In this document: positions 15,002 to 38,275 of the stretch, in pieces
Numbering within the stretch: the stretch's first letter is position 1
Layout of the letters: every line of letters starts with the position of its first letter
Assembly (NCBI RefSeq): GCF_036785885.1
Contig: NC_092312.1
Location: 13,844,001-13,908,000 of the forward strand
Direction: 5' to 3'
DNA length: 64,000 nucleotides
From: Coffea arabica
Taxonomy: Eukaryota; Streptophyta; Magnoliopsida; Gentianales; Rubiaceae
The notes under the pieces: model-generated
Database searches by the model: none
What the model saw: only the letters and a program-made list of their open reading frames with translations
What the model was told of the DNA's origin: nothing
Position numbers and translations under genes: made by a program

Positions 15002-18000
15002 ATGAGCAAGGCCATGGGCAAAATTCACTACCTTTTCTTGATAAATTTTAGCTTAGTTTCGTTAGCCATGATGGCTGCCGGCAACAGTAATGTTACAACG
15101 GATCAATTAGCGCTTCTTGCACTAAGAGATCGCATGATCAATTCAGAGCCTCGAGAAATCTTGGCAAAAAACTGGTCCATTACCTCCTCCGTCTGTGATT
15201 GGATAGGGGTCACCTGCGGCTCTCGACACCACCGAGTGACTGCCTTGAATATCTCAAATATGAACCTTACTGGTACCTTACCTCCTCAACTTGGGAACCT
15301 GTCCTTTCTGGTTTCCCTTAACATTAGCAAGAACAATTTCCATGGAGAGTTGCCCCGTGAGTTAGTTCACTTGCGCAGATTGAGATACCTTAATTTTAAG
15401 ATCAACAATCTCGGTGGAGAGCTTCCCTCCTGCTTTGGTTACTTACATAAACTCCAATACCTGTCTCTCGCAAACAATAGCTTTTCGGGTTCTATCCCGC
15501 CTTCCATCTCTAACATGTCAAAATTGGAGACGCTATATCTGTCTTTCAATTCCATTGAGGGGACCATTCCAACAGAATTTCAGAATCTTCATAATTTGAA
15601 GACTTTGATTATTGAGTGGAATCAGCTTTCCGGTCCTTTGCCTCTCCATGTATTCAACATTTCCTCACTGGAAAACATTGCCTTCTGGAATAACAACCTA
15701 TATGGCACTCTTCCGGACGACATCTGTCAGCGCCTTAAGAAACTCACATGGCTTAATCTAGCGGACAACAATTTGATCGGTCGAATACCTTCAACGGTGT
15801 CTCAGTGTTCACTGCTTCGGTATCTTTGCTTGTCTGGGAACCATTTCACTGGACCGATACCCATGGGAATTGGGAACCTGACAATGCTGGAGGAAATACT
15901 CCTGCAGACGAACAAATTAACAGGTAAAATGCATTAGTGACTGCTTTCATTCCTATCTTTTAAGTATAGATTAAGCTTATGTTTCTGTTCTTGTATATGC
16001 TTCATAGATATCTAGTAAGCTTATGCTTCTGTTCTTCTATATGGAGGTTTCATAGAAACATAATAACTATACCAACATTTGTCCTTTTTTTTTTTTTTGC
16101 GGTTTTGATAGGCAGTGATGTGAAAGCCCAGCCTCTCTCTATTAGTCTAGATTAGTCTAGATGCAAGTTACATTTCTAGAATCTTCCCGAAGGAAATCAG
16201 CACCGCCTTAATTGTGGTAACTTAGTGCATGTATAAATGGACGGCAAGTGTTTAGTACAAGTGTACGGTAATTTTATGAGTTTTAAATTGGTGTCTTAGT
16301 TTAGAGTATAATTGTTAGGAGTTCTAGTTATTTTGGTATAGTGCGTGTTGTGTATAAATTATGATTATTATTTGTGGATTTCATTTTGGATTTTGGGATT
16401 CACATACGCCCACATAAACATTCACGTTTATGTACGAGCGTGCATATATTCTTTGGTAAATTACATTTACCTCTTTTGAGGTTTGATTAAATTACGTATC
16501 AGATCCTAAGGTTTGTCAAATAGATTTATAACATAAACACTCTTTTCGCATGGGTCTTAACCCTTTAACATTACAGGCCTTCATCAAATCCACTTTTATG
16601 ACAAATCTTGGCTTTCCTCTGATATTCTCTTACCAATGCATGCATTAAAAGAACACTATCTGCTAAAGCAGCATCAATTGTTGGAAGGGGAGATCGATGT
16701 CTGCCTTTCACAAAAGCATTTTGAGTAGTTGAAATGAACGTGGGAAGCACGTTCTTCAATCTAACAGCAGGCATTGCAGCAATACACTTGTATAAGTGTA
16801 TTAAAGTAGGAAATATATCTATAGTCCTTCATATGAATAGCATCCTTCACCTTTGGAATCAAAGTACAGAAGTACTGTTTAGGGGATAGAACATATAACA
16901 TTGTTCAAAACAGAACTTTATAGCATCTGCAATCTCCCTTCCAATTGTATCCCCGCTGCCTTTAAAGAATTCACTGGCATATCAATCTGGTCCAGGTGAT
17001 TTCCCATTCTTCAAGCCAGGTGTTTGCAATTGTTGTTTCTACTCATCAGAGATAATAGGAGAGATCATCTCTAATAGATACCTTGATTTTAGAACTAAAA
17101 AGATTCTTATAATATTGAACTGCTATTTCCTTCATCAACTCATAATCAGTTACTCTTTCTCCAGCATCTGTGATTAAGGACAGGATTTTATTTCTAGCAA
17201 TATTGCTCTTCATTTTTCTAGAGAAAAAAATAGTATTTCTGTCCTCCATATTTAGTCACTGAATTCGAGATTTTTCTTTGAAAAATTGCTCCTCAGCTAT
17301 CACTAGTATTGCAAACTTATTAGTTGTTGACTTACACTTCTAGATCAGCTCACTATTTCTAGGTTCTGATTGGAAAGCAACATGAATGCTATCCAATTGA
17401 GCCTTCTTTTGCAGCATTCTGGCACTGGTACTACTGAAGTGCTTTGTATTCAAGAGTTTGAGCTCAACTTTCAATTTTCTAGGCTTTTCACACACTTTTG
17501 AGTGGATTACCAACAACAACAAGTGACCAAGAAGCCCTTAGCACATCACTAAACTGCTCATGCTTCAACCAAAAACTGTGAAATTTAAAGGGCTTGGGAC
17601 CAAAGTCTATAGTATCTACAGTTCTGACAGAAACTTGAGAGTGATCAGACACATTTGGAGGCAAAAATTCAACTTTCATTCCTAGAAGAGGAGTACCATG
17701 CATCATTTGCAAACACCCTATCAAATTTACTATATATTTTAACTCCATCATCTATCAAACTACACCAAATATAATATAGTCCTATACTAGGAACTTCATC
17801 TACATCCATCGTCTCAATAAAGGTATTAAACTCCTCTATTTACCTAAAGTCAAAATCATAACCACCAAATTTATCCTCAGCAGATCTCAGAGCATTGAAA
17901 TCTCCAAGGATCGCCCAAGGATTACCACCTATTTGCCGGTTCAACTCCATCAAATACTTCACAAAGGTCTTCTATCTGCAGGTTTATTCATACCATATAC

Positions 18001-21000
18001 CATAGTTACCATAAAAGGGATCTTTAAGGTCACAACTTGTACTAAGCAAGTGATTGCTTCATGGTGCATTTTAAAAAGTTGACACTGCACATTTGTCCCA
18101 TTTCACCAAAACAAGACTCTACCAGCAGTATTACTAGTAGCACTATGAAAATAGCTCCATCCAGGCATACATCTTTGCATCACATTATCTATGTTATGCA
18201 TTTTGACTTTATTCTCAAAAATGCCAATACTATCCACATGTAATTCAGATATTAGTTTTTACATAGCTATTTGTTTTACAAGTATATTGAGACCTCTAAT
18301 ATTCCAACATATGACTTTATGATGAGATAGGCATCTTGTTACACTTTCCCTTCCGCCTCTGCTTCAACTTTACACTTTTTGAACTTTTTGCAGTAATATT
18401 ACTATCACTATCCTCTCAACTCGATAAAGAAGAATAACTATTTGCAATTAGTAGAGCAATCTCAATACCAATGATAGGAATTGACTTTCCCATCATATCA
18501 GCAACTGGCTCACTACAACCACTCTCAGGGATCATGTTACTATTCTCTTTTGGTAAAGCCATTTCCAATATTTTATGATCCATCACATCTTTCCCTTTGT
18601 CATGATTCTGTTCAAGCTCCATAATAGACTTGCCAGCCTTTGCAACAATCATTCTTTTTTCTTCTTGGATAGTAGGTTTACTGTTCTTTACACCAACCAT
18701 TGTCTCTTCTTTCTGTTTGGGCATCCATTTTTTAATCACCTGGGGAACTGACAGACATTTATTTGCCTAATGTCCAAAACTCCAACAGTGGTTACAACTG
18801 GATAATACCCACTCATACTCCACTTGCTAATAATCCTTCCTCCAAAATTCATTGACAAATGGGATGCTCGTAGGTCTTGCTGTCTTTATATCTAATTCAA
18901 CACAGACCTTAGCAAATCCAACTCTTGTTTGAGCTGCGGTATGATGATCAGTATATAGTGGTTTTCCCACAACACTAGCTAGTTTGCTAAGAACACTAGG
19001 GGTATAATAGTGCAATTTGCCAGTTTCAAACTTGGAAATCGAATCCAAATGGGCACAGTGGAATAGATATCCTTAGACAGATCAAAATCCAGACTCCAAG
19101 GCTTTAAGAAAAGCATTTTACTACCCCATAGCCAGGGTGATTGCTCGAGTACCTCATTTTTACTAGCCTCGTCAGAGAAGTTAAACACAAAGATCCCCTG
19201 CTTAGCACAGAAAATTTCCATTTTTCCCAAGTGGTTCCACTTCGTATCAACAAATTTTTTGATTACAGAGAAAGGAGGCAAAGTTCCCACCATAAACCCA
19301 ACTACTGCATATTTCCATTTGTTGATGCCTTCAAGTACATCATCCAGATCCAATTTTACCAGAGACAAATGCTCATTAGCAGTCTTTTCCAGAGGATCAA
19401 AATTAAGATGCATACCTCTGTAAGAAGACTTGGATTTGACAACTTGCACACACAAATCTCTTGTCAACAGATCCCTTTGTTTTCCTGCACTAGATTCCCC
19501 ACAATCCACCTATCGCAAACCTTGCGCTTCAACTAGAGTTGGAAATTCATGATCGTCCTTCCCATTCATAACCATTAGCAAATTTCGCCCATTCCCAACA
19601 TCAGGCCATTGAATTCGCTTGGAAGGAACCATTGCATGTCTTCCTTTCGCTGAATTAGTATGCAAAATAGGCACTAGTTCTGAAAAAGGAGCCATAAGTG
19701 TCTAGTTCAAAGATCCCACCAGATCACGCAAAACAAGATGAAACAAAGAAATTTGACCGAGGAAAAGTAATCGGGGAAGTAGACGCTCACAAACCACTGT
19801 AAAAAAACTACCCCATTGAAGCAGGAGAGCTCCAACAATAGCAGGAAGAAGCAGCGTGCACCTTGGTAAGTGGTAACTCTCCTCGGCGCACGTTTTGACT
19901 TTATTAATTTTGCTACTAACAGTATCACTGTGATTCTAACTTCTAAGGTTAAAAATATCAGTTGTTTCTCCCATTTTTAAAATTTTGTAATATTTTCAAC
20001 CCAATCAAAATATATGATTAAACCACTTATTCTAGTGAAAGGAAAATAATTTCTTTCTAACAATGCCGTTTGTTACACTATTATTTTACACAGTTACAAT
20101 TATATTAATTAAGACTTGAAAACAAAAACAAAAAACATGAAGATGCAAGTCTGCTGTGATAAATTATGGCAACTAAAAACATAAGCAGCATATTCATTTA
20201 ATCCGCAAACAATTAATAAAAGTTCATTTAAGATATTCTCAAGCGACAAAAGTAATTTTTTTTCTTTGGGATTTGTCTATTTGGTGGTCTAAGATCACAT
20301 AACAAGTTGTAGATTTTTTTTTTTTTTTTTTGGCGAAAGGAATGGACCCAAAAATTTTGCAATTTAGGGGGTCAGTTTTGTTTTTAGAACTTTAATATTG
20401 GGCTTATCTTCATTTTTTAACATGCTCTTAGAGTACCGAATAAAAGAAATCTTTCCTTTTATGTAATATGTTTTGAGTAAATTTAAGAAATTTTATAGAC
20501 TGTTTAGTGTCCATACTTTTTATTTCTCCAACTCGATGGCTTGAAAATTAGAAAGAAGAGAAACTATTCATAATCATATTTAAAATTCATTTGAGATGTT
20601 TTCAAGGTGCAAAGAAGTTATTTTATTCATCTTTGCAGTATTTTCAAATGCTTTTTATGCATTTCATAAAATATTCAGAAGTTGAGCTTTTTTTTTATAT
20701 ATTTTTTGTCCATATTATTACCAAAAAATATTAAAGGATCTCTCAACTTGGTTAAGAAATATTTCTATTTAATTACCACATTAGTCAAGTTTTCAAATGT
20801 TAAGGAGTTTTTAATTAGTTTATCATAACAATAACGTAGCAGGTTCAGTTGGTAAGATGCTTTACCTATAAGTCAAAAATCATTATTGATCCTTGTTGAG
20901 AAGAAAATAGTTTATCTTGGTGAGTTAGGGACCACAAAAAAAAGAGTAACTTTGGAATGATGAATTGGTACTTTTTTATAATCAACATGTAAGATCCAAA

Positions 21001-24000
21001 ATCCTAACGGATTTGAACTCCTCTGTACAAGCAACCGATCACTAATGGCCAATTGGCAAACTGGACTTACTAATTGAAACTACAACTAAATGATACAAAA
21101 TGCAAGTAAAATAATAAGAAACAACAATTGCCTTGTGCTCTTGTCATACATTTTAGGTTTTCGTATACTTGTCCAGCTATCATTTTTTTTTTTTTTACAT
21201 AATATAGTGTACGTTTATTAGAAATAAATTGGTGTATATCAACTCAATGTAAAATACAATTGCAACCATACCTACCCTGACCCCGTAGTCATTGATCTGT
21301 TAAATTTATGGGTTTGTTTTTCTTTCTATAAACAAATTAGATAAGCTATTATTTCTTGAATAGTTTTTTATTTGATACCTTCTTCTTTTTTTTTTTTTGG
21401 TGTAAATCCTTGTTGAATTTTAGTAATGTCTCACTAGTTTTTGACAAAATAGAAATTGGTTCCTTTTCCTTGATTTAATGGAGCACTCATTTTTAGGAAT
21501 TCAATAGGAAAAAGCTCTTATCTAATTTTCTTTGTTAATTTAGTGATTTATGCTTAAAAATAGAATTTAGTGCGTTAAATGAGTAGGGAAAAATCAGTTT
21601 TGTATTCATTGGGTACTTTTTTGTATTCAATAGTTCTGTTAGTTGGATTTAAACACTGGGATAGACAAGCATGACCGTAAAACCTGATCTATGTTCGGTT
21701 AAATCTTCCCCTGCTATGTTATAGACATTCTATAATCATTTTCAATTAATGCATTTGGAGAATTCAATTATCTCCTTAGCGTTGTTATTATATACTTCCA
21801 TTACAAGTCAATTCAAACTCATAAAAGTTGCAATTTTGCAGGTGCAATTCCAAATGAAATAGGGAATCTTACTATGTTGAAGACTTTAAATTTTTGCAAC
21901 AACAAGTTGACAGGTATGCCTTTGCTCCTAATGACAAGTTCTTGATTGCTTAAACCATAGGCAAAGCTCGGCATGCGATTGGATTTATGCTTAAAAATCA
22001 GTTTTATATTCATTGGGTACTTTTTTGTATTCAATAGTTCTGTTAGTTGGATTTAAACACTGTGATAGACAAGCATGACCGTAAAACCTGATCTATGTTC
22101 GGTTAAATCTGCCCCTGCTATGTTATAGACATTCTATATATAATCATTTTCAATTAATGCATTTGGAGAATTCAATTATCTCCTTAGCGTTGTTATTATA
22201 TACTTTCATTACAAGTCAATTCAAACTCATAAAAGTTGCAATTTTGCAGGTGCAATTCCAAATGAAATAGGGAATCTTACTATGTTGACGATTTTAACTT
22301 TTCGCGACAACAAGTTGACAGGTATGCCTTTGCTCCTAATGACAAGTTCTTGATTGCTTAAACCATAGGCAAAGCTCGGCATGCGATTGGATTTATAGGA
22401 TAAAAGGATCACGACTATTTCCAATTAATGCATTTGGAAAGTTAAAATCTCATCATTGTTTGTTACTACATTGTTTCATTACAAGTCAAATCAAACTCAT
22501 AAAAATAGCAATTTTGCAGGTGTAATTCCAGCTGAAATAGGGAATTTACTTATGTTGACGGCTTTAGACTTTCATAACAACAAATTGACAGGTATGTCTT
22601 CGTTCCTAGTGACAAGGTCTCAATTGCGTGGACTGTCTTTAAAACTCCACATCAGTTTGATCTATAGGATAACTTAGGCCTATGTTCAAAGAGGTTAGTT
22701 TTAAAGCCTTGCTGGAAGGATTTGGGAAGACCTATAACTTTCTATTATTCTAAAAGATTTTTTTTTTAAATTTAAATTTTAGAACCTTGCTAGGCATCGC
22801 CAAGGGAAAGTTGCCGATTGTATGCTAACGCAAAAGCAGTTCAATTACCATATTACAGGTGGAATACCCGAAAATATTGGGAACCTTCACAGATTGGAGG
22901 AGCTTTATTTATACAACAATACACTATCGGGTTCCATACCGGCAGCAATTTTTAACATTTCATCTCTCCAACATATTGAACTTAATCAGAACAAATTCTC
23001 AGGACCTATTCCTTTGACAGCGAGTAATAAGCTAAGCAATTTGGAGTCTCTTCTTCTTGATGACAATTACTTGAGCGGAGTTATACCTAGCACCATCTCA
23101 AATGCTACTAAGCTAGTTTTTTTGGGGCTTTACAATAATGAGCTCACAGGTTCAATCCCCACCTCTTTAGGAAGTTTAAGAAATCTAAAATTTCTAGGCT
23201 TGGCTCGCAACAAGCTGTCAAGTCAATCCTCAGAATTGAGCATTTTCACTTTCTTGACGAGTTGCAGAACTTTGAAATATTTAGTGTTGGATAATAATCC
23301 TCTAAATGGTTTTCTACCGGCTTCCTTTTCTAACTATTCGACTTCACTTGAAGCCATAAGTGCAAACAGTTGTAAAATCAAAGGAAACATCCCAGATGGA
23401 ATCAGCAATTTGAGCAGTTTAGTGCTACTAGAATTTTCAGGTAATGAATTGATTGGATCTGTCCCAAGAACTATGCATAGTCTGGCAAATCTTCAGGTGT
23501 TGTACTTGGACTCCAATCAAATAAGAGATGTCTTGGACATTTTCTGTGGATTACATAGTTTGGGGTTGTTAGACTTGAGCCAAAATCAAATTTTTGGTAG
23601 TATCCCAGAATGCTTAGGAAATATGACAAATTGGAGACAGCTTTACTTGGACACCAATAGGTTGACTTCTATGATACCTGCTACCCTATTGAGCATGAAA
23701 GATCTCCAAATTCTCAACCTTTCATCAAATTTCTTAAGTGGATCACTACCTCTAGAGATCAGGAACCTCAAAGCAACGTACAGTTTGGATCTCTCGTCTA
23801 ATCAATTGTCAGGCATCATTCCTACTACAATTGGGATGCTACAAGTTTTACAGAACCTTTCATTGGCGAGAAATAATTTGCAGGGCTCCATACCAGAATC
23901 ATTTAGCCATATGGTCAACTTGGAATTCTTGGACCTTTCACACAATAATCTCTCTGGTGTGATACCCAAGTCAATGGAGGCACTCAAATCTCTTAAGGAA

Positions 24001-25312
24001 TGCAATGTTTCTTTTAATAGATTAAGTGGCGAAATTCCTAGAGATGGTCCCTTCAGAAATTTTACAGGTCAATTGTTCATGAACAATGAAGGACTCTGTG
24101 GTGACCCAAGGATTAGTGTTCCACCATGTCAGAGTAATTCAATTAGAAGATCGAGCAAAAGAAAGGTGCTTCTACTTGTCATTAGTGTGTCAGGGATTGC
24201 AGCAATACTGATAATAGCAATTGGAGCATTATTGAATCTAAGGTGGCTAAAGAAACCAAAGAGTTCTGGTGGAACAGAGTTGATGTCAATGGAAAAATAT
24301 GATAGATTTTCATACTATGACCTTTTGCGCTCAACTGATAACTACAATGAAAGCAATTTGCTTGGAGAAGGGAGCTATGGTTCTGTTTACAAAGGGATCC
24401 TAAGCGATGGCACTGTTGTGGCTATCAAGGTATTCAACTTGCTAGCGGAAGATTCATTAAAAAGCTTTGATAGAGAATGCGAGGCACTAAAGAGTTTACG
24501 CCATCGAAATCTTACAAAAGTGCTCGGCTGCTGCTCTAACCCTGATTTTAAAGCCTTGGTACTCAAATACATGCCCAATGGGAGTCTTGAGAAGTGGTTG
24601 TACTCTCACAACCATTTTTTAGATATGTTTCAAAGAATAAACATAATGATTGATGTTGCTTGTGCATTGGAATATCTCCATTATGGTTGTCATACTCCTG
24701 TGGCACATTGTGACTTGAAGCCCAGTAATATCTTGCTTGATGAAGATATGGCTGCTCATGTAAGTGATTTTGGTATAGCAAAAATGTTTGGCCAAGGAGA
24801 AAGTATTTTGTATACCAACACCCTCGCAACACTGGGATACATTGCACCAGGTTAAGCATTTAGCTTTTGCTGTCTACATTTTCTTTACTTCTACGATGCT
24901 GTTCATCTGTTGTTAATCTTTTAACTAATTCTATTATTCTGACTATTGTAATCTTACGACAGAGTATGGATCCGAGGGGATGGTTTCGACAAGAATCGAT
25001 GTATACAGTTTTGGAATAGTTTTGATTGAAACTTTTTCCAGGATGAAGCCTAGTGATGAAATGTTTTCAGGAGATTTAAGCCTTAAAAGCTGGGTAGAAG
25101 ATTGTCTTCCTGATGCACTTCAAGTGGTTGATGCGAACTTAATAAGGCCAGAGGATCAGCATTTCACTCACAAGCTGAAGTGTGTTTTATTGATCATGAA
25201 CTTGGCTCTAAACTGCTGTAGAGAATCTCCAGGGGAAAGGATGAACATGAAAGATGTTTTAGCAAATTTGAAGAAGATTAAACACCAGCTTCTTATGACA
25301 GTAAGTGCTTAG
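15002..25312 (+). CDS. LRR receptor-like kinase, subfamily XII type (gene A)
   Basis: Predicted exons: 15002-15923, 21842-21913, 22250-22321, 22520-22591, 22859-24850 and 24963-25312. All have GT-AG borders and join in frame to 1,159 residues. Layout: signal peptide (1 to about 27), LRR N-cap with SSVCDWIGVTC, about two dozen extracellular LRRs, a paired-Cys C-cap, transmembrane helix (about 815-839), and a Ser/Thr kinase with P-loop GEGSYGSVYKG, Lys903, HCD motif (Asp998) and DFG (1016-1018). The catalytic loop is Cys-Asp, not Arg-Asp, so this is a non-RD kinase as in the immune receptors FLS2, EFR and Xa21. It probably perceives an extracellular ligand at the plasma membrane and signals for defence. 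The three 72-nt exons each encode one LRR; the first two are a recent duplication. Intron 1 is 5.9 kb and holds a LINE. No lesions were seen. The ligand is unknown. Confidence 0.85.
16085..16098. repeat. T-run inside intron 1
   Basis: A run of T near 16085-16098 could be the complement of the poly(A) tail of the minus-strand LINE whose coding part ends near 16566. No target duplication was identified, so the link is a guess. Confidence 0.25.
16566..19880 (-). mobile_element. L1-type LINE, decayed and lacking most of its RT
   Basis: This minus-strand non-LTR retrotransposon lies in intron 1 of gene A. ORF1 (from ATG near 19695) has a DUF4283-like nucleic-acid-binding domain (FSDEASKNEVLEQSPWLWGSK, then IWIRFPSL) and a CCHC zinc knuckle near 18740-18800 (CNHCWSFGH...C), with a stop inside the knuckle. 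ORF2 begins near 18310 with the endonuclease start CWNIRGLN. It continues through SDHSQVSV and a linker, and stops in the reverse transcriptase at IKVDLMKA (about 16570), just before the first catalytic Asp region. Many stops and frameshifts interrupt it. The rest of the RT is gone, so it is dead. 5' and 3' limits are approximate. Confidence 0.85.
19881..21560. other. Intron 1 of gene A, remainder
   Basis: This intronic, AT-rich DNA has long T-runs (20315-20330, 21180-21196, 21386-21400). I found no exon, no complete transposon and no gene. A tRNA-like GTTCAGTTGGTAAGATG near 20840 might be the head of an old SINE. Confidence 0.4.
21590..22397 (+). repeat. ~408-bp tandem duplication carrying one LRR exon
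   Basis: Two adjacent units, about 21590-21992 and 21993-22397, are nearly identical, and each holds one 72-nt LRR exon (21842-21913 and 22250-22321, offset 408). Upstream intron parts differ at about four bases plus a 4-bp TATA indel; the ~75 bp downstream of the exons are identical. A third, clearly older relative lies at about 22420-22600 around the exon 22520-22591. Confidence 0.9.
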
Positions 25313-36973: not shown

Positions 36974-38275
36974 AATCCGAAAAGGCAGTTGTCATACACT
37001 TCTAGTTGTATGGTAGACACGGTTTTCACATTCATGTAAATTTTCCTCCGTCCATAGGACTTGTTCACACGGTTAAACTACTTCAAAGCAGATAAGGGAA
37101 ATAACTAGCTTTGTTCCATCTTTAATGACCGCTTCTTGTAGAAGGGTATATATGACCGATTGCAAATATATAACAACAACTTAATTATAGGCTTGTGTCG
37201 CTTAAACATCAAAACTTTTTCAAAATCATGAAGCCTGCCAGAAATGTAAGCTGCTGTTTAGTGTTTACTATGGAAATTTATGTTGAGGTAAGTTATCCTT
37301 CATAAAAGCGGGGACAGTAAACTGATATGGACGAAAACTTTGAAGAATTTTGACCTTAAAACAATTCTTTCAAAGACTTCAAGAAGGCAAGATGTTACTT
37401 TGCAATTTGATAACGCTCTTACCTGTTAGGCCGCTAGTAGGAATTGATAAAACCTGAAGCATAGTTAAATTACCGATCTCTTTTGGAATCACCCCTGCGG
37501 AAAAGGATGTGGGATAAGGAATATGAATATTTATTATTTCGGAGAAATTCATCATACTCAATATAACGTGGTTGACATGGTGCGTCATACTTGACATAAC
37601 ATGGTAGACTTGATGCATCATACTCAATATAACGTTTAGAAAATCTTCAACAATCATTTGTATGTCACTGGATACCTATTTATGGGTGGGAAGTTTATGT
37701 ACTTTATTTTACTATGTCGAAAGCAGATAATTATGGTTAGAAATGAAAATGGAGAATAAAAAAAAAGTAAATAAATAATCGATAGAAGTACCAGACTCGA
37801 TAAATTATGCAGAATCTACAATTGTTCGTCATGACATTTAAGAATTACTAAATAGAAATTATAAATAACATGACATCCATTTCCATCCATTCTTTGAGAA
37901 CAATCTAATACACCAAATCCAAATTAACCAAAGCACTAAAAGATTACTATCTTCTCATATTTTTTTTATACATCTTAGCTTATGCTCGAAGTGATAGAGC
38001 ATAACAAGAGAAAGTTAGATGGCCGCACCGCCTAGATGGCAGACACATTTCAACTTGAGAGTTTGTTTAATGAATCAGACGCATAAGGACGTGGGCAGCT
38101 CGCTAACCTGTAGGGTCCGGATGGTGGGAGATGCAGTAGACTTTGAAGTATTCCAAGTGGCCAAGCGGAAGAAGAATTGGTGGGTTGATTTTCAAAAATA
38201 TACTTACTATCACTACTTGTGATGAATGATGCTGATTCAGTGCTTCAATTATGAAGTTTCCTTGTGTTCTTTTCT

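Follow-up and report, generated by a model that had tools for sequence, protein, structure and literature searches.

Probable diversifying selection on the ligand-facing residues of a Coffea arabica non-RD LRR receptor kinase that includes single-repeat exons

Gene A and its single-repeat exons

The window, the whole 64,000-nucleotide stretch of Coffea arabica DNA that was analysed and to which all positions refer, carries a leucine-rich repeat (LRR) gene on its forward strand, here called gene A. Its spliced model, composed of exon 1, three mini-exons (E1, E2 and E3), a large exon and a last exon, forms a single open frame of 1159 amino acids.

15002..15923, forward strand: gene A exon 1, with the N-terminus, LRRNT and nine LRRs by motif; hypervariable between alleles at x sites
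21842..21913, forward strand: mini-exon E1, 72 nt, one LRR of 24 amino acids, a phase-1 intron on each side
22250..22321, forward strand: mini-exon E2, the tandem duplicate of E1
22520..22591, forward strand: mini-exon E3, a third and older copy
22859..24850, forward strand: gene A large exon, with the remaining LRRs, a transmembrane (TM) segment recognized by eye and most of the kinase
24963..25312, forward strand: gene A last exon, with the C-terminal part of the kinase and the stop

The products of the mini-exons are AIPNEIGNLTMLKTLNFCNNKLT (E1), AIPNEIGNLTMLTILTFRDNKLT (E2) and VIPAEIGNLLMLTALDFHNNKLT (E3). Each mini-exon is 72 nt long with AG and GT borders on both haplotypes, and the flanking introns, as read from the sequence, are in phase 1 and split a Gly codon 1+2. 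The signal peptide in exon 1 was identified by eye only.

Pfam matches to LRRNT_2, LRR_1, LRR_8 and Pkinase identify gene A as an LRR receptor-like kinase (LRR-RLK); against NCBIfam, a library of bacterial and archaeal proteins, only matches below the cut-off were obtained, and these were disregarded. The concave x residues of the repeat motif LxxLxLxxN touch ligands in plant LRR receptors, FLS2 among them, and non-RD kinases are frequent among receptors for microbial molecules. The translated catalytic loop of gene A, VAHCDLKPSN, is of the HCD, or non-RD, type, so that gene A appears to have the feature tied to LRR-RLK subgroup XIIa in the part of PMC4982124 consulted. FLS2 (4mn8) is a sequence match, with BRI1 and BAK1 ranking above it in a search of the PDB with the kinase. 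A single-sequence fold of exon 1 (mean pLDDT 64.5) showed roughly one strand per repeat and was too weak for surface mapping.

Other features were noted in the window. An open frame on the reverse strand (18979-19509) lies within the first intron of gene A and presumably encodes a retroelement-type, DUF4283-like protein. More LRR receptor kinase-like frames cluster on the reverse strand between 28000 and 60000, and a neighbouring minus-strand LRR gene contains one 72-nt mini-exon of a divergent type (37423-37494). Past about 34 kb, some of the matches to the other haplotype seem to be paralogous.

Duplication of E1 and E2 on both haplotypes

The first-pass annotation of this locus described two tandem units, each with a 72-nt exon. 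Both are present, and the older E3 (22520-22591) had been overlooked.

21545..21981, forward strand: duplicated unit 1, starting at GATTTAT and including 33 bp absent from unit 2
21982..22389, forward strand: duplicated unit 2, its junction being the 7-bp microhomology GATTTAT

The 33 bp absent from unit 2 sit between AAAAAT repeats. Alignment of 21589-21992 with 21993-22396 bore out the differences first described. E1 and E2 differ at 5 of 72 bases (21881, 21884, 21890, 21895 and 21898), all nonsynonymous and one in each x codon of LxxLxLxxN; the non-exon parts differ by four substitutions (21602, 21659, 21707 and 21798) in 328 aligned sites and by one 4-bp TATA indel. For five random mutations to hit each x codon once and all be nonsynonymous, the probability is ~4e-6 to 6e-5, a range set by the transition and CpG weights. 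Nonsynonymous x-site differences on this haplotype (5 of ~12) exceed those of the introns (4/332; Fisher p = 2.4e-6), as do those of the whole exon (5/72; Fisher p = 0.011).

The assembly is of a 1.2-Gb phased diploid plant in which some neighbouring contig numbers act as haplotypes (C3/C4, C9/C10, C17/C18), paired here on the basis of matching positions. The other haplotype has three mini-exons too and the same duplication with an identical GATTTAT junction. E1 and E2 therefore stem from a tandem duplication that both haplotypes share. This sharing led us to reject an assembly error, and it also means that the duplication is not entirely new. The description of a newborn repeat holds only in part, given the shared junction and the 7/332 differences between units on the other haplotype.

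On that haplotype, the exons of units 1 and 2 differ at 2/72 sites and the introns at 7/332 (p = 0.50), with 2/12 changes at x sites (p = 0.035 against introns). Across all four copies, the whole exon gives 5/72 against 9/332 in introns (p = 0.084), and nonsynonymous x sites against introns give p = 3.5e-5. The claim that the exon changed faster than its introns thus stands on this haplotype, at the p value of 0.011 given above, and does not extend to the other haplotype or to the four copies together; what is general is the concentration of changes at x sites.

Changes were polarized with a relative on contig C21 that may be a partial gene and whose x residues are T, I, N, R and D. By this reference, T->K in E1 and N->T in E2 occurred on both haplotypes, and I->T, R->C and D->N are private to E1 of this haplotype. 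R->C and D->N are CpG transitions from CGCGAC. With two of the five changes being CpG transitions in a CGCG context, the case from this single exon is weaker.

Allelic and family-wide divergence at x codons

Gene A frames are open in both haplotypes and keep the 24-residue periodicity. The two alleles differ at x sites far beyond their introns, mainly in LRRs 1-10. In a comparison leaving out three gapped codons, exon-1 x codons show 15 nonsynonymous and no synonymous differences (15N/0S) in 13 codons, a pN of 14.1%, relative to 56/6653 (0.84%) in introns (p = 1.6e-13). Significance was retained with the opening kilobase of intron 1 (12/1000; p = 1.5e-9) or a more divergent upstream kilobase (28/977; p = 4.6e-6) as the reference. 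The exon-1 framework shows 10N/4S (pN 1.7%, pS 2.1%); because its pN is hardly below pS and lies above introns, some relaxation is possible. Elsewhere, we counted 3N/0S in mini-exon x codons, all within E1, 3N/0S at x and 5N/3S in the framework of the large-exon LRRs, and 11N/7S in the TM segment and kinase. E1 alleles differ at 3 of ~12 x sites relative to 9/925 in local noncoding sequence (p = 3.3e-4; whole exon, p = 0.05).

Among 22 LRRs delimited by motif, x changes affect nine of LRRs 1-10 and three of the last five, and the seven in between have none. The seven unchanged LRRs lie in a difference-free stretch, so the boundary is uninformative on constraint.

22067..23276, no strand: difference-free interval between two allelic differences, 1209 bp, covering E2 and E3

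Reading the allelic identity of E2 and E3 as constraint was rejected since this interval spans both. Its lack of any base difference amid ~1% divergence suggests a recent exchange across E2-E3. At 22 of 29 allelic sites in exon 1, one allele's base is shared by at most one of 12 paralogous segments, and such rare-base sites are present in both alleles.

We had expected an x-site excess in other allelic pairs, and two of three were without it. The C9/C10 pair has a milder excess in exon 1 (x pN 4.6% vs introns 1.7%) and none in the large exon (x pN 10.8% vs x pS 10.1%). The C3/C4 pair at 62 Mb and the C17/C18 pair showed no x-site excess between alleles. Gapped codons were excluded from these comparisons: exon 1 of C3/C4 lost 40, and the large exon of C17/C18, where the C17 stretch is shortened, lost 292. 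Introns of these pairs were represented by their BLAST-aligned parts only, with mini-exons included. Gene A is therefore an outlier among the four pairs.

With E3 as query, the genome yielded at least 27 mini-exon matches; the true number may be higher, as only the best candidates enter the scoring. Of the 27, 23 are intact 72-nt exons, comprising 19 distinct sequences. Four degenerate matches were left out of all counts: C11:21595305 (a 4-nt insertion), C9:35990870 (an altered acceptor), and C17:7086738 and C18:5720351 (broken second copies). All 23 intact mini-exons can be read as 72 nt between phase-1 introns that split Gly. Five of nine mini-exon loci, among the best candidates scored and under the contig pairing adopted here, were found on one haplotype only (C11:21.59M, C7:47.77M, C21:2.78M, C21:2.80M and C9:35.99M), which may reflect presence/absence variation.

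Codons 15, 17 and 20 are TTA, TTT and AAC in all 19 distinct mini-exons, and the x codons carry four to nine amino acids; framework codons 4 and 11 are variable too, with five and four. In pooled pairs, which are mutually non-independent, x pN was 0.43-0.49 in four divergence bins with introns at 0.10-0.29. Framework pS in those bins (0.12-0.24) was near introns, and framework pN was below introns except in one bin, where they were nearly equal (0.095 vs 0.101). x pS, based on few sites, was 0.21-0.36 and also at or above introns.

A codon model of the 23 intact mini-exons gave omega_x of 3.3 and omega_framework of 0.44 relative to neutral, and rejected omega_x = 1 (2dlnL 37.6). It was implemented in our own script, which took the neutral rate from introns, used a single tree built on the intron flanks, scaled its branch lengths, and modelled neither recombination nor CpG effects. 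The statistic was 29.5 when E1 and E2 were removed, 28.6 when gene A was removed, 45.9 for a single haplotype and 19.9 to 36.8 on dropping any single x codon. Family-wide in this genome, scaffold codons evolve below the neutral rate and the five x codons about threefold above it, the signature of diversifying selection at the x codons of xxLxLxx; the view that x sites are merely neutral fails at this level.

Selection, alternatives and known receptors

We regard it as probable that gene A, a non-RD LRR receptor kinase assembled in part from phase-1 single-LRR cassettes, is under diversifying selection at its ligand-binding face. Such selection had been proposed at first from E1 and E2; it is now supported by omega_x across the family and by the exon-1 counts between gene A alleles. 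Part of the LRR domain would consist of 72-nt cassette exons between phase-1 introns, one repeat each, and tandem duplication of a cassette via intron sequence would add one LRR with the frame intact. E1 and E2 are predicted to be both spliced into the mRNA. The x residues may bind a variable ligand, probably a microbial one, with new binding surfaces presumably favoured by selection.

Relaxed constraint, under which a redundant new repeat drifts at neutral x sites while purifying selection holds the scaffold, would make five of five changes at x much less surprising if framework nonsynonymous changes were forbidden (p 0.007-0.065), and the closeness of pN to pS in the exon-1 framework fits it. 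We nevertheless consider it unlikely, as it predicts omega_x = 1, which the codon model rejects, and as the x changes between E1 and E2, like those between alleles, run above the intron rate. Mutation bias, with methylated CpG in the CGCG of the ancestral exon mutating fast and happening to fall in x codons, accounts for R->C and D->N, yet it is very improbable as a whole: the three other changes are non-CpG, x sites across the four copies stay above introns once both transitions are removed (3/12 vs 9/332, p = 0.006), and the one-per-x-codon pattern has p ~6e-5 even at a 20-fold CpG weight.

The first-pass annotation had also raised conversion from another LRR exon, a short patch being copied into E1 or E2. 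Tandem copies and paralogues are available as partners, and the difference-free stretch shared by the haplotypes over E2-E3 implies that local exchange may occur. Our searches of this genome found no donor exon for a patch in either exon, leaving the proposal unsupported: an E1 30-mer with up to three mismatches matches only E1 and its allele, and an E2 30-mer on the same terms only E2 (both haplotypes), the other E1 allele and C21. An 18-mer spanning the private sites has E1 as its sole exact match, and none of its 28 one-mismatch places is at a family locus. E1 of the other haplotype equals E2 at 21884, 21895 and 21898 but not at 21890, which does not fit a single conversion by E2. A donor in other individuals is possible; overall we judge conversion improbable. 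A non-functional gene or an assembly artefact, for which the four degenerate mini-exon matches among 27 could speak, is extremely unlikely in view of the duplication, open frames and AG/GT borders found on both haplotypes.

Beyond selection on the x residues, we tentatively raise a broader and rather speculative reading, in which phase-1 cassettes act as an evolvability device: intron positions between the repeats would let the entire ligand-facing strand move together, microhomology within introns would mediate cassette duplication, and every new copy would soon be adjusted at its five contact codons, the gene A alleles being receptors of different specificity under balancing selection. Because each repeat is flanked by introns, neutral divergence can be read only a few bases away from the codons under selection, and selection on individual contact residues becomes directly measurable in a plant receptor of immune type. 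Two alleles and a recent cassette duplication in gene A offer a test of how a new LRR gains specificity.

Gene A resembles expansions of LRR-RLK subgroup XII (the FLS2, EFR and Xa21 class) in selection at variable x residues. In the portions of the following sources consulted, the LRR receptor kinases of oak have expanded, in many cases in tandem, and positive selection on them centres on the variable residues of LXXLXLXX (PMC6086335); x-site selection is also described in recently expanded LRR-RLK paralogues, with no such pattern on ancient branches (PMC5380761); Fischer 2016 is cited for selection in LRR-RLK expansions; and extracellular domains of RLKs show more positive selection than kinases (PMC12382012). 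Selection in subgroup XII was inferred from divergence of whole paralogues, whereas gene A offers cassette exons and two alleles with introns as a neutral yardstick.

Among the titles and abstracts covered, with subscription papers mostly outside this scope, we found neither phase-1 one-LRR exons in plants nor within-gene LRR exon duplication under selection described. Tandem LRR exons of equal length and uniform intron phase also occur in the ciliate Tetrahymena, where, in the sections of PMC6564038 seen, the arrays are thought to have grown by unequal crossing over; those exons are 90 bp, in phase 2 and mostly under purifying selection, whereas gene A mini-exons are 72 bp and in phase 1. Equal in exon length are the 72-nt exons of rice, which encode one LRR each and for which, in the excerpts of PMC3050792 consulted, an origin of LRRs by exon duplication was proposed; selected sites lay mostly in xxLxLxx, and positive selection was judged a limited contributor overall. 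Rice introns are in phase 2 and interrupt xxLxLxx at its first Leu, whereas the phase-1 introns of gene A cut within the Gly of LxGxIP, which keeps the complete ligand-facing strand in a single exon; the gene A family falls outside the phase-2 class of plant 72-nt one-LRR exons. Receptors of this class are already known to undergo selection at x sites; the arrangement in cassettes is unusual, and its phase-1 cut at Gly differs from the known one-LRR exons of rice.
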